This document shows, piece after piece, positions 39,437 to 46,276 of a stretch of DNA of 46,276 nucleotides. The stretch is from Spirogloea muscicola. Taxonomy: Eukaryota; Streptophyta; Zygnematophyceae; Spirogloeales; Spirogloeaceae. The notes below the pieces were generated by a model. The model made no database searches. It saw only the letters and a program-made list of their open reading frames with translations, and was not told the origin of the DNA. The translations under genes were made by a program, and so were the position numbers. Positions within the stretch are counted from its first letter, which is position 1. Every line of letters starts with the position of its first letter. The stretch covers positions 1 through 46,276 of the forward strand of contig WELB01000014.1 in assembly GCA_009602725.1 (NCBI GenBank), read 5' to 3'.

Positions 39437-41082
39437 ATGCAGAGCCTGGCGAGGCTGCTGCAGGCGAGGGGCCAGGCGGCCTCCGGCGCCGTCCTCCGGC
39501 GTATGCGCGTCGCCGTTGCCGGCAGCAACCCGTCCCTGGACGCCTTCTCACGCGGCCGCACGCTGGCCGGGGAGCCCGCCAAGGAGCAGATTCAGGAGCA
39601 CGGCTTCGAGAGCACCACAATTGCGGACATCATCGGCCAGAAGTCCTCCGAGGAGGACGGCTCGTGGCTCTGGTGCACCACGGAGGACACTGTCTACGAT
39701 GCCGTCAAATCTGTAATTCGGCTCTCCTCCTCCGTGAATTGCTGTCAGAGCACGAGCACTGCTGCGCTCTTAATTCGCAACAGCAGCTTCGCAATCAAAC
39801 AATCTTTCCTCTGTCCTTGGGAAGGTACTAGAAAGTGACTGCATAGCTTGCAAGCATGCATTGCACTACCTAGAGTGTTGAGCCGTTCTGGACTCTCCGT
39901 GATAGGAGTCAGTCTCCTCATTCCAGATGACTTCGCATAATGTGGGCGCCCTGGTGGTTGTAAAGTCAGACTCACATGGAACAGTTGCTGGCATTTTCAC
40001 AGAGAGAGGTGCATTGCCTAGTCTACTCTGAGCTGATTAAGTTGCTTCAATGCCCTGCATTTCCTGGCCTGAAGTATCTCGTCTGCCAGCACAGCAGCAA
40101 GCTTGTGTATTTAGAGTGGCAGGCGGAGCACGTGAACTTGATGTCAAGCATGTTACTTGCTATTTAGGCCTACTACTTTTATAATGCAAGGCAAATTGTG
40201 CTTTAAGCATTGCCATCCTTGGAGCTTGTACTGGCCTGCATCGTCCTAATGTACTTCACTTACCATACATCCTGATCTTGACAGATTATTTGAGGAAGAT
40301 TATTGTGCAAGGTCGGACTTCAAAGACGACCAAAGTGGGTGACATCATGACTGAAGAGGTATGCAATTCTCTGGCTGACCTCTGCATTGGTGAGCGATCA
40401 GCTTGCATCACCCTGCAGACTTCATGTCAGCCAGGGCATATGAGATTCTCAACTCGAGTTAGGCTTCTGCAATCATGGTATTCGGTACTCTGCACCTTGA
40501 GTAAATCCACATTCGATCTACGTTGACGGTGGTGATACTATGCGCATACTATCAAGTACAGTGCCAAGGTGCTGCATCAGGTCTTAGAAGCAATAGAGAT
40601 GACCTTCCTCACTTGCTCGTGTAACATCGCAGAACAAGCTTATCACAGTGACACCGCAGACCAAGGTACTGAAGGCTATGGAGCTCATGACTGGTGAGCC
40701 AACGCTCTAACAATGTGAAAGCATGGTGTCATGCCGAGCTTCTTGGAATCGGGCTTAACTTGTGGGTCAAAGAGTAACTTGGAGATTGTAAATGTATCTA
40801 AGAGATCTGCCCTGTGCTGTCTATCAGGGGTGGTTGCCTGGTCAATGGCTTGAAGCTTCTTACATTGACCCAGGCTTTGGAGAAGGGTCCAACCACAAAC
40901 CCAGCCTTTGATTGTAACAAACTCGTCATGTATATGCAGACAATCGTATCAGGCACATCCCTGTCTGCGAGGGCAAGAAGATGCTGGGAATGGTGTCCAT
41001 TGGTGATGTGGTCCGTGCAGTTGTCCATGAGCATCGCGAGGAGGTCAACCGTCTGAGCGAGTACATCAGTGGAGGTTATTAA
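39437..41082 (+). CDS. CBSX3: Mitochondrial-type CBS-pair protein (CBSX3-like)
   Basis: Five exons join in phase: 39437-39712, 39927-40008, 40285-40358, 40633-40693, 40940-41082, giving 211 aa, close to plant CBSX3 (about 206). The N-terminus MQSLARLLQARGQAASGAVL is basic, Ala/Leu/Arg-rich and acid-free, as expected of a mitochondrial presequence. CBS1 (about 65-125): TIADIIGQKSSEEDGSWLWC, TVYDAVKSMTSHNVGALVVV, TVAGIFTERDYLRKIIVQGR. CBS2 (about 130-205): KVGDIMTEENKLITVTPQTK, LKAMELMTDNRIRHIPVCEG, MLGMVSIGDVVRAVVHEH. Plant CBSX3 binds adenosine nucleotides and regulates thioredoxin o2 in mitochondria; that role is carried over by similarity. The start is the only in-frame ATG after the (CCG)n leader. 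Confidence 0.95.
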
Positions 41083-42260: not shown

Positions 42261-42839
42261 GCTGACTAGGGGTTACTGAGTGGCCATCTGTTCAAGTGGT
42301 TGCCTTGGCACGCACTGGGGAGGGCTGAAGGCGTGGAGGAGCGTGGGAATGCAGACCACCTCACCGATTACAACTTTGTTGCTCTAGCCTCAATGTCCAT
42401 AGGGCATGTGAGACTTGATGGCTAGACTTGCTCCAGAGGCTTACGCAGCAAGCAATTACCCAACCTCAATGACAACAGAGCGAGCAGCCCGCCGGTCATG
42501 CCACCTGGTTTCAAGTTCAGGTACAGCAAATGCGCCTTGCGCTTGTGCTAAAGAACCGTTCCCAGGCATTTGCCGTGCATTTGCGGGCAGGCTGTGCCCG
42601 CTTTGTGCTTTGACCATCTCCTTGCCTGCTGCCAGCTACTAGCTGCAATTTACTTGGACTTGCGGGTTCTTACTAGGCGTTCTTTGGCTACCATTCGTGT
42701 TTAGTAACTTGATGGAGGTGGATTGTGCTCTCCAGCAGATTTTGCTCACTCGAGGATACCAGTGCCTCCCTCAGCCAACTTGTTACCCCGTTACCAAGAC
42801 ATTTGTAAGGCTGAATTAGCCTCTCTTTCAATGTCATGC
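42261..42839. other. Intergenic DNA
   Basis: 'gtgctgactaggggttactgag' at 42260 resembles the tail element CTGACTCGTGGTTACTGAGC. Otherwise nothing is recognised. Confidence 0.35.
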
Positions 42840-42970
42840 GCACCTCCCGCCTTTCCCCCAGCTGAAGAAAGAAAGAAGAAGAAGCTCTTCCAATAAAGGC
42901 AAATGCTTTGAGAGGCCAGTCTAAAGCAATGAACAAGGTCTGTAAGTGCCGGATGGTGCAGAGAGATACA
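42840..42970 (+). repeat. R1 repeat copy
   Basis: GAAGCTCTTCCAATAAAGGC, then GAGAGGCCAGTCTAAAGCAA and TGAACAAGGTCTG, then GGATGGTGCAGAGAG. The order matches 16411-16470 and 22098-22175. Confidence 0.7.
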
Positions 42971-43744: not shown

Positions 43745-46276
43745 TCAGCGGGAGAGATTGAGGGGGTTGTGAAAGGTGCCAGAGAGTGCGCGGGGAAGGG
43801 AGGTGGGCACGTCCAAATACTTGGAGCGGACGCCGAGACGGCGCAGCGTGAGCTTGAGCTGCTGCATTGTTACATGCCGTGTGATATATGCGTCCACGCC
43901 TGCGCTGATGCCTTTGTCCATGTTTGTGTCCATGCCCGCAAGGTCCCACCTGACATTTGAACGTCCAACGTCCACAGGAATCAATAACTGCAGGTTTTGT
44001 ACTTCCATTGACCAGCTTAGACATTTGATAAGTTTACAGTGACAGGCAGACATTGCGGGCAGACTCTGCAAGAAACCTGGGCTGCCACAGTTTCGTAATG
44101 CATGCGCACCGGTTCATGTTTGTGACGGCTACAATGAGCACATGGTCTGAGAGGCCATCAGCATCCTTGGGCATCAGCTCCTTCTCCAGCCGCCGAATCT
44201 CCAGCACGGCCTCGAATCCATCGCTGCTGGCAGCCTGGGAAGCCACACGTTTGAAGAAACAATTAATGAGCTACTTCTCATCAAGGCCACACCTCTAATG
44301 ACGACTGTTGTACTGAAAATCTCTCCTAATTCTTTGGATAGATGCTACTATATGTATAAGCAGCAGCTCAAATGTTGCAACGGAACATGAAGCAATACAA
44401 TTCAGGGCAAAGTTGGCAAAAGACAAGGGCAAGTATCAGATGATACGTTTGTCGCTTGTGGCTACCTGGAGCTCAAGGAGCACAACGTTGAAACGCACGC
44501 CGCCTGGAGGCTCCAGTAGGCTCTGCTGAAAGCGCCATGCTGCTTCCTTGGCTGTGCTCACCGTCGCGACGCCCAGCCCACACCGCTCCAGCTGCGTTGT
44601 CAGCAGCCGTCGGCTGCTGGCAAACGAGTCCATCACCAGGGCCATGGAAGCCGGGCTGCTGCCCGCCTCCTGCCCCTCGTCGATCCTATCCAGTGACGAC
44701 GTCGAGCCGCCTGCATGGCCATGGAACACAATGGCTGCAGAAGACTGCTGGCAGGATTTGTACATCCTTCTCCTGAGTCATAGCGGACTACATAGCAGAG
44801 TAATGCAGTCGCAGCACTGCATCAGTGCAGGCACAGCCACTGACCTTGGGACGACGTCAAGCTCCCCAGCGAGAGCTGTGCTGACAGGCGCGGCGACGGA
44901 GAGAAGGAGGCCGATGGCGTCGGCGAGGACGTTGGCCGCAGGACGTGCTCAACGGCGGTGGGGGCTGGCCAGGTCGGCGTGCCGGGCTCTGTGAGCGAGG
45001 ACGGGCTCGTAGTGCCGCTGCTGATCTTGTCAATCTCCTCCTCACCATCATCTGCATTTGATGGCAGGCTCATCAGCGGAAGCCGCAGCAGCACCGGCGG
45101 TACTGCCACTGTCCACAGAGACTGTGCGTTGCAGCGCTTTGGCATCCATGGCCGCCTCACCTTCGCACTGCTCGCGAAGGATGCTGTCGGGGGCCCAGTC
45201 CGGCTCGATGGTGAGCCTCGTAACGGCAGCAGCGCCACTGGCGGTGGGCTCAGTGGGGACCGCCGGGAGAGGGACGAGGACACACATGGCGCCGCGGCCG
45301 GGCTGCGGGCTGGCGAAGAGCAGCACGCGCAGGGAGCTGCTGTCGCGCGTCCTGAGCAGCAGCTCCTCACCGTCGACCTCCGCACCGGCCAGCACGCTGC
45401 GCAGCATGTCGTTGCAGCTCCTGGGAATACAAAGGCCACCCAAATCAGGACCGCACTGACCGAAGCGGAGCATGCCACTAACTGCTTTATATTTTGAAGG
45501 TATACAGGTGTATACAGGGATATACAGGCTTGACTGGTGCAGTGGCGGTTATGTATAAAGGCCACACCTGTGGAGGAGGCTGAGCGGCGAAGCGAGCACG
45601 ATGGCAGGGAAGGCCACCGCGGCGAGCGCGTCGGCCTCGGGCCAGCCGCTGAGGGCGGCCAGGCGGCGGTTCCACATCGTGCAGGCGAGGCCGGGCCCAA
45701 CAGCGAACGCCGGCAGCGGCAGCTCGTCGCTGAGGACCATCGAATTGCCGCACTCCCTGCTGGCGACGACCGACGGCCAGGACTCTGCCGCGGGCACAGT
45801 CATGGCCGGCCTCGCTGGCCCAGCGAGCTCCAGGACGAACTCCAGCGCCGCCTGCCGGTTGCCGCCGCCGCCGCCGCTGCCACCGTGGCCGCCGTCGCCG
45901 CCGCCGCCGCCGAAGCAGCCGCCATGACCATTGTCAATCGGCGATAGAGCCGGCTTGAGGGCGTTGCCTGGGAATGCGGGAATGCCGTCTTCAGCCATGA
46001 TGGAGCCGCCGCCGTGGTGGAAGCTCGAGCCGTACGCGCAGCCGAAGCTGCTATGGACGCCGCCGCCACAGCACCCGCCGGCAGCACCGAGGCCGGCGAA
46101 GAGCGGCGCCGGCGCCGCCACCATGGCCTTGCTGTAGTGCGCGTCGAGGAACATCTCGGCAACGGCCGTGACGGCGCCGAAGGCGGCGGCGGCGGCGGGG
46201 CGGCACTGGTGGAGCTCGGAAGGCGGCGGCGACGGTGGGGGTGCCGCCGCCAGCAGCCGAGCCCAGGCCGGCGACG
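43745..46276 (-). CDS. PAS-domain protein with a degenerate response-regulator receiver domain, 5' end outside window
   Basis: Minus-strand exons join in phase: >46276-45568, 45420-45104, 45051-44845, 44734-44466, 44234-44110, 43949-43745. The open frame continues past the window edge; an internal Met lies at 46154. After Gly-rich linkers comes a PAS-like region (about 45740-45260): LPLPAFAVGPGLACTMWNRR, LAALSGWPEADALAAV, DMLRSVLAGAEVDGEELLLR. A Ser/Pro-rich linker leads to a CheY-like receiver (about 44620-43790): ALVMDSFASSRRLLTTQLER, RFNVVLLELQ, DGFEAVLEIRRLEKEL, VLIVAVTNMNR, GISAGVDAYITRHVTMQQLK. The phosphoacceptor Asp position is Glu (44474-44472) and the signature Lys is Arg (43879-43877, TRH in place of TKP). 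The usual DD pair is reduced to MD. The switch Thr (VAVT) remains. No histidine-kinase H-box or ATPase lies between. Small-ligand or redox/light sensing by PAS and a phosphorylation-independent receiver are inferred. Confidence 0.8.
45500..45529. repeat. Short TATACAGG microrepeat in intron
   Basis: Three spaced copies of TATACAGG lie in the intron between the exons split at 45568 and 45420. Confidence 0.85.

Follow-up and report, generated by a model that had tools for sequence, protein, structure and literature searches.

A six-exon gene and its second copy

At its right-hand end, the window (i.e. the whole analysed stretch of 46,276 nt) carries a minus-strand gene for which we propose a model of six exons (46154-43745) encoding 542 aa. 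The exon borders were picked from the sequence alone, and the joined coding frame is open across all six exons. From N- to C-terminus, the protein comprises a weak PAS-like domain (approximately residues 148-248; 45264..45713, interrupted by intron 1), a Ser/Thr/Pro-rich linker (44646..45263) and a receiver-like domain at the C-terminus (residues 374-514; 43832..44645), which is spread over exons 4-6. Exon 1 (45568..46154) was counted from the first Met that is conserved in both copies of the gene (see below), the true start being uncertain: an assembly gap of 1190 N starts one base past the window end and the frame is open from this Met up to the gap, so that the N-terminus is provisional. 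The GT-AG borders of exon 2 (45161..45420) are also present in the second copy; its junction with the linker exon 3 (44845..45051) is ambiguous, as is the 5' border of exon 4 (44466..44710), by 24 nt. Exon 4 encodes the first half of the receiver, exon 5 (44110..44234) its middle and exon 6 (43745..43949) its end, the C-terminal tail and the stop codon. Introns 1 to 5 measure 147, 109, 134, 231 and 160 nt and all have GT-AG borders.

We re-placed the two linker introns, which now span 45160-45052 and 44844-44711. The original prediction had spliced the linker at 45104/45051 and 44845/44734; those sites are in frame in both copies and thus stay in consideration, but are probably off. The 57 nt that the donor at 45104 would add are 79% identical between the copies, with 7 of 19 residues changed, unlike the other coding sequence. 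Intron 2 (45160-45052) shows no indel when the copies are aligned, and identity over its final 52 nt reaches 90%. Its retention would truncate the protein behind the PAS-like domain in either copy, and a regulated isoform is possible.

A search of the genome DNA listed one further copy (copy B; the copy in the window is referred to as copy A), which is located on another contig (C92:387073-389614) and is 85% identical. It fits the same six exons with introns of at most 234 nt and encodes 545 residues. The downstream flank of copy A also lies beside copy B (76-82% identity), indicating a homeologous or a strongly diverged allelic region. No indels separate the copies in exons 2-6, which are 88-97% identical; the alignment of exon 1 (88%) has 15 gap columns. 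Introns 1, 4 and 5 are 74-76% identical and contain indels; the values are 85% for intron 3 and 84% for intron 2, the latter free of indels. Neither model contains a stop or a frameshift.

The gene is under purifying selection, most strongly in the receiver and the tail. Nei-Gojobori dN/dS between the copies is 0.25 for the whole gene, 0.40 for the N-terminal part, 0.36 for the PAS-like part, 0.20 for the linker and 0.092 for the receiver, and the 28-residue C-terminal tail shows no amino-acid change at all. With rounded counts and uncorrected for multiple testing, the synonymous excess yields Fisher p values of 9e-9 (receiver) and 0.0075 (PAS), and in all five parts of the gene it reaches nominal significance (p < 0.01). 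Since the two copies diverged recently, a conserved surface cannot be read from them.

Directly upstream of copy B we noted a long poly-T run beside 118 N (positions 2815-2998 of L006, the stretch of C92 with copy B), which is an assembly artefact or the edge of a gap. At gathering scores, Rfam gave no match on this stretch. Gene copies in sets of two or three are frequent in the genome.

A receiver lacking the phosphorylation residues

Recognition of a receiver-like domain at the C-terminus, as originally claimed, stood up to scrutiny at the sequence level, the similarity being above chance. A profile built from 43 other receiver loci of the genome scored 32.8 bits (copy A) and 29.5 bits (copy B), compared to 9.8 bits at most among 2000 shuffles of copy A; rows of both copies were excluded from this profile, although its columns had been aligned by means of our first receiver profile. 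The latter had pieces of the gene in its training set, and its score of 71 bits was for this reason not used, while the columns for the residue positions still derive from it. The suggested search with the Pfam Response_reg profile did find matches, all of them below the gathering score of 30.2 bits: the trimmed receiver reached 21.3 bits (E 3.2e-4) in copy A and 17.1 bits (E 0.0065) in copy B, whereas the whole protein gave E 0.017 for copy A and no match for copy B. The best matches in the PDB are receivers of plant hybrid kinases, CKI1 and histidine kinase 4 (E 3.5e-4 for copy A and 1.7e-3 for copy B). For copy A, CKI1 form 5lnm ranks first, and CKI1 is also matched in its Asp form 3mm4 (E 9.3e-4) and its Ala form 5lnn (E 2.5e-3); for copy B, the top match is histidine kinase 4 (E 1.7e-3). 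By sequence similarity, we assign the domain to the receiver superfamily (Response_reg).

Alignment with CKI1 3mm4 (ALVMDSFASSRR / VLVVDDNFISRK and LLELQAASSDGFEA / FMDCQMPEMDGYEA) and with histidine kinase 4 (7p8c; DAYITR / DGYVSK) places the catalytic positions. Two of the predicted replacements were recovered in both copies, Asp to Glu at the phospho-acceptor (LLELQ; 44472..44474) and Lys-Pro to Arg-His at the signature (ITRHV; Arg codon 43877..43879). The acidic pair had been read as Met-Asp and has to be corrected: VMDS aligns under VVDD, making the pair Asp-Ser (44625..44630), with the first Asp kept and the second lost. In addition, the Met-Pro following the acceptor is Ala-Ala, and about six extra residues follow the conserved Thr. 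The switch residues themselves are kept, namely this Thr (AVTN; 44121..44123) and the Tyr three residues before the Lys position (YITR). In place of the DDK set of a phosphorylatable receiver (acceptor Asp, acidic pair and Lys), both copies thus carry Glu, Asp-Ser and Arg, and the domain is a receiver homologue without the acceptor Asp, i.e. a pseudo-receiver or aspartate-less receiver. Lacking the acceptor Asp, the second metal Asp and the Lys, it should not join in phosphotransfer. An assembly or sequencing error was rejected, and a pseudogene is disfavoured: Glu, Arg and Asp-Ser are identical in the second copy, which makes either explanation unlikely, and dN/dS is low.

Our genome search with Response_reg listed 51 matches (51 of 147 candidates scored), all of which were fetched and correspond to 49 loci. 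Among these listed matches, the acceptor Asp is present in 49 of 49 loci and the signature Lys in all 35 that cover its position; the loci are not independent, as most belong to groups of two or three nearly identical copies. Such a listing omits divergent receivers like the present one, so other pseudo-receivers of the genome may be missed. Searching the genome directly with the receiver gave, besides the two copies, four weak matches only (best E 0.0013). In scans of prokaryotic and viral sequences with the receiver and tail, 108 and 7 stretches, respectively, fitted the pattern, none of which was confirmed.

The descent of the domain is hinted at by a phase-0 intron (44235..44465) directly after Glu-Leu-Gln. 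A pattern search found an intron at the same site, directly after Asp-x-Gln, in at least nine of the 49 other receiver loci, and each of these nine has a HisKA match on the same strand within approximately 5 kb, five of these matches being below the cut-off. The shared intron together with the nearby HisKA matches is no more than suggestive of descent from the receiver of a hybrid histidine kinase, HisKA proximity having been scored for these nine of the 49 loci. In a receiver tree, the domain has no firm position and sits on a very long stem (3.06 changes per column).

A PAS-like domain and no kinase between it and the receiver

Assignment of the N-terminal domain to the PAS family is probable only: a profile made from this genome and hhalign favour it, whereas Pfam gave no match above its cut-off. 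Pfam PAS did not match copy A; in copy B it reached 14.2 bits (E 0.046) against a cut-off of 22.6, and the unrelated family CbtA scored about as well (E 0.042). NCBIfam returned for the PAS-like part one unrelated match only (E 0.02). A profile of four PAS domains of this genome, chosen by hand and joined by eye, scored 20.3 bits (copy B) and 18.9 bits (copy A) versus 6.7 bits for the best of 5000 shuffles; in hhalign, the PAS-like part matched this four-domain profile with a probability of 92.6%. The part also has a WN...SGW pattern in common with phytochrome B. The phytochrome B match has a whole-chain E value of 0.003 (0.009 with both copies) and a single-domain E of only 8-20, and inspection by eye revealed no PAS intron in common with phytochrome-type genes. 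The N-terminal domain is probably a divergent PAS domain.

The genome contains a plant-type phytochrome gene (L057, L062; C175, probably also C101 and C16), with a PHY E value of 2.8e-16 in the C175 copy, the only one tested. PAS matches of the kind found in phytochrome genes occur on three contigs. The phytochrome gene speaks against a core chlorophyte as host; taken with a CHASE-like hybrid kinase (see below) and the frequent gene copies in sets of two or three, it points to a streptophyte alga.

No histidine kinase lies between the two domains, as had been stated at the outset: introns of 109-231 nt in copy A and of at most 234 nt in copy B are too short, and a kinase exon at this place was rejected. 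Pfam matches to HisKA and HATPase_c, which would mark a hybrid histidine kinase such as PHK, were absent from the protein, as was a match to the protein kinase domain that would be expected of Rim15. Outside the upstream gaps, neither contig has a HisKA or HATPase_c match among those listed for the genome (HisKA: 114 matches, 120 of 120 candidates scored; HATPase_c: 46 matches listed, 38 of 141 scored). From sequence reading without a profile run, the genome also appears to encode a CHASE-like hybrid kinase. A search of the genome for HPt found none at E <= 0.1, HPt exons being easily missed; the supposed phosphorelay partner is thus unseen.

Proposed function and relation to known systems

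We propose that the gene encodes a functional, kinase-less pseudo-response regulator composed of a PAS domain, a disordered Ser/Thr/Pro linker and a pseudo-receiver, acting via protein contacts; we put the probability of this reading at roughly 50%. Signalling would probably proceed by partner binding instead of the customary phosphate relay, with a pseudo-receiver predicted to be unable to take phosphate from a His-to-Asp relay. The receiver surface and the unchanged C-terminal tail may form a binding or dimerising module, as in the pseudo-receiver of the PRRs, where the receiver is reported to be required for dimers (PMC9486492). The pseudo-receiver would perhaps also compete with true receivers for phosphorelay partners. 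Likely controls are binding of a ligand or partner by the PAS domain, which may read its input directly onto the receiver, and proline-directed phosphorylation of the linker, the latter being plausible since its seven SP/TP sites are kept in both copies (7/7).

According to the original prediction, Glu mimics the aspartyl-phosphate, so that the receiver would be permanently active and the PAS domain would gate access to it. The kept Thr and Tyr of the switch are in keeping with such a locked-on state. So are the Asp70Glu variant of ARR18, reported to act in plants as phosphorylated ARR18 does (PMC6963811), and Asp-less receivers, in which Asp is most often replaced by Glu, a residue that can make them constitutively active (PMC4395418). 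On the other hand, Arg replaces the Lys expected to hold the mimic, Ser stands at the second metal Asp and Met-Pro is lost; with Lys and the second metal Asp gone as well, Glu need not mimic phosphate. Asp-to-Glu is also said to require further changes for activation in many cases (PMC4395418), and for some pseudo-receivers the idea has been disproved (PMC12632262). Locked-on activity through Glu is possible but not favoured, and we regard it as unlikely.

The layout may also be incomplete, with a kinase or another domain encoded upstream in the assembly gap. The frame is open to the 1190 N in copy A and to the poly-T run and the 118 N in copy B, and a moss PHK homologue modelled without HisKA was deemed incomplete by its authors (PMC6137987). 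Against a longer protein, a Met occupies the corresponding position in each copy, HisKA and HATPase_c are missing among the matches listed for either contig, and the one frame tested past the copy B gap (225 residues) had no Pfam match at E <= 0.01; we consider it decidedly improbable.

PHK1 and PHK2, known from moss and with homologues in Klebsormidium, resemble the present gene in having PAS upstream of a receiver of the hybrid-kinase type, but differ in possessing two PAS domains, HisKA, HATPase_c and an intact DDK receiver, whereas the kinase parts and DDK are missing here (PMC6137987). One could thus imagine a decaying, functionless remnant of a PAS hybrid histidine kinase of this type. 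The PAS-PAS-HK-REC order of the PHKs, whose homologues are reported from bryophytes, lycophytes and Klebsormidium (PMC6137987), and the receiver intron shared with hybrid kinases fit this idea; the dN/dS values of 0.25 (whole gene) and 0.09 (receiver), the unchanged tail and two models free of stops and frameshifts speak against decay, rendering it very unlikely.

A plant clock PRR that lost its CCT domain is least probable of all, as neither copy has a Pfam CCT match, the receiver is C-terminal instead of N-terminal, both the intron and the PDB matches lead towards hybrid kinases, and a distinct PRR-like gene that has CCT and intact Asp and Lys exists elsewhere in the genome, even if Asp-to-Glu is named a typical PRR change (PMC12632262). 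TOC1 and the other PRRs are similar in that their pseudo-receivers have Glu for Asp, perform no phosphotransfer on that residue and are used for dimers. They differ in their architecture of an N-terminal pseudo-receiver and a C-terminal CCT; in our protein, PAS precedes a C-terminal receiver, CCT is absent and the Lys, which PRRs keep, is Arg.

Returning to the kinase-less regulator proposed above, we found further partial parallels. Rim15 of Ascomycota, a "PAS kinase" according to a cited title, likewise carries its receiver at the C-terminus, mostly with Glu in place of Asp (PMC8510515), but is a protein kinase, in contrast to our protein by Pfam. Bacterial pseudo-receivers and aspartate-less receivers in general have lost the Asp, with Glu as the commonest substitute and Lys to Arg being common (PMC4395418, PMC12632262); aspartate-less receivers are said to keep one acidic residue and Lys-Pro, of which only the acidic residue is kept here. 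CKI1 form 5lnm shares Glu at the acceptor (Asp in 3mm4, Ala in 5lnn), but its acidic pair is intact. It differs from 3mm4 by a single residue in the aligned stretch and, as read from these letters, would be an engineered CKI1 variant; for a related receiver, a structure with Glu at the acceptor has thus been solved.

Glu for Asp and Arg for Lys, both named common in bacterial pseudo-receivers (PMC12632262), are each already known, which makes the domain less novel than first thought. The unusual part is the layout of PAS and pseudo-receiver without a kinase. In our literature search, which lay mostly outside subscription journals and outside the architecture tables in the supplement of PMC4395418, we recognised no description of such a protein in algae. 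Tentatively, and with the odds somewhat against it, one may envisage a class of kinase-free PAS-pseudo-receiver proteins in the plant lineage, apart from the clock PRRs, that arose from a hybrid histidine kinase minus its kinase core. If this class is real, the sensor would act directly on a phosphate-independent receiver surface. The switching of bacterial pseudo-receivers is called a mystery in a 2025 review (PMC12632262), and a natural protein made up of hardly more than a sensor-like domain and a pseudo-receiver would offer a small system in which to test it.

In this alga, the Asp-to-Glu change is found in a gene other than the PRR-like one, which retains Asp and Lys in its receiver. The PRR-like gene (L063; C137:267000-272000) has a CCT domain, and its receiver also keeps the acidic residues (LVLTDVVMPG, FLVKP); it differs from land-plant PRRs in retaining the acceptor Asp, as is also reported for Ostreococcus TOC1 (PMC12704426). 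Similar receiver loci are L044, L055 and L056, and CCT matches lie beside L044 (C9) and L055 (C67).

Two further elements were observed 3' of the gene. A dispersed repeat of approximately 111 bases (42743-42853) accounts for most of the 47 matches listed in a genome search with the downstream flank, mostly at 80-88% identity (40 of 1091 candidates scored). On the plus strand, a reading frame at 40918-41082 encodes a CBS domain (Pfam E 1.9e-5), and matching DNA is also present beside copy B.
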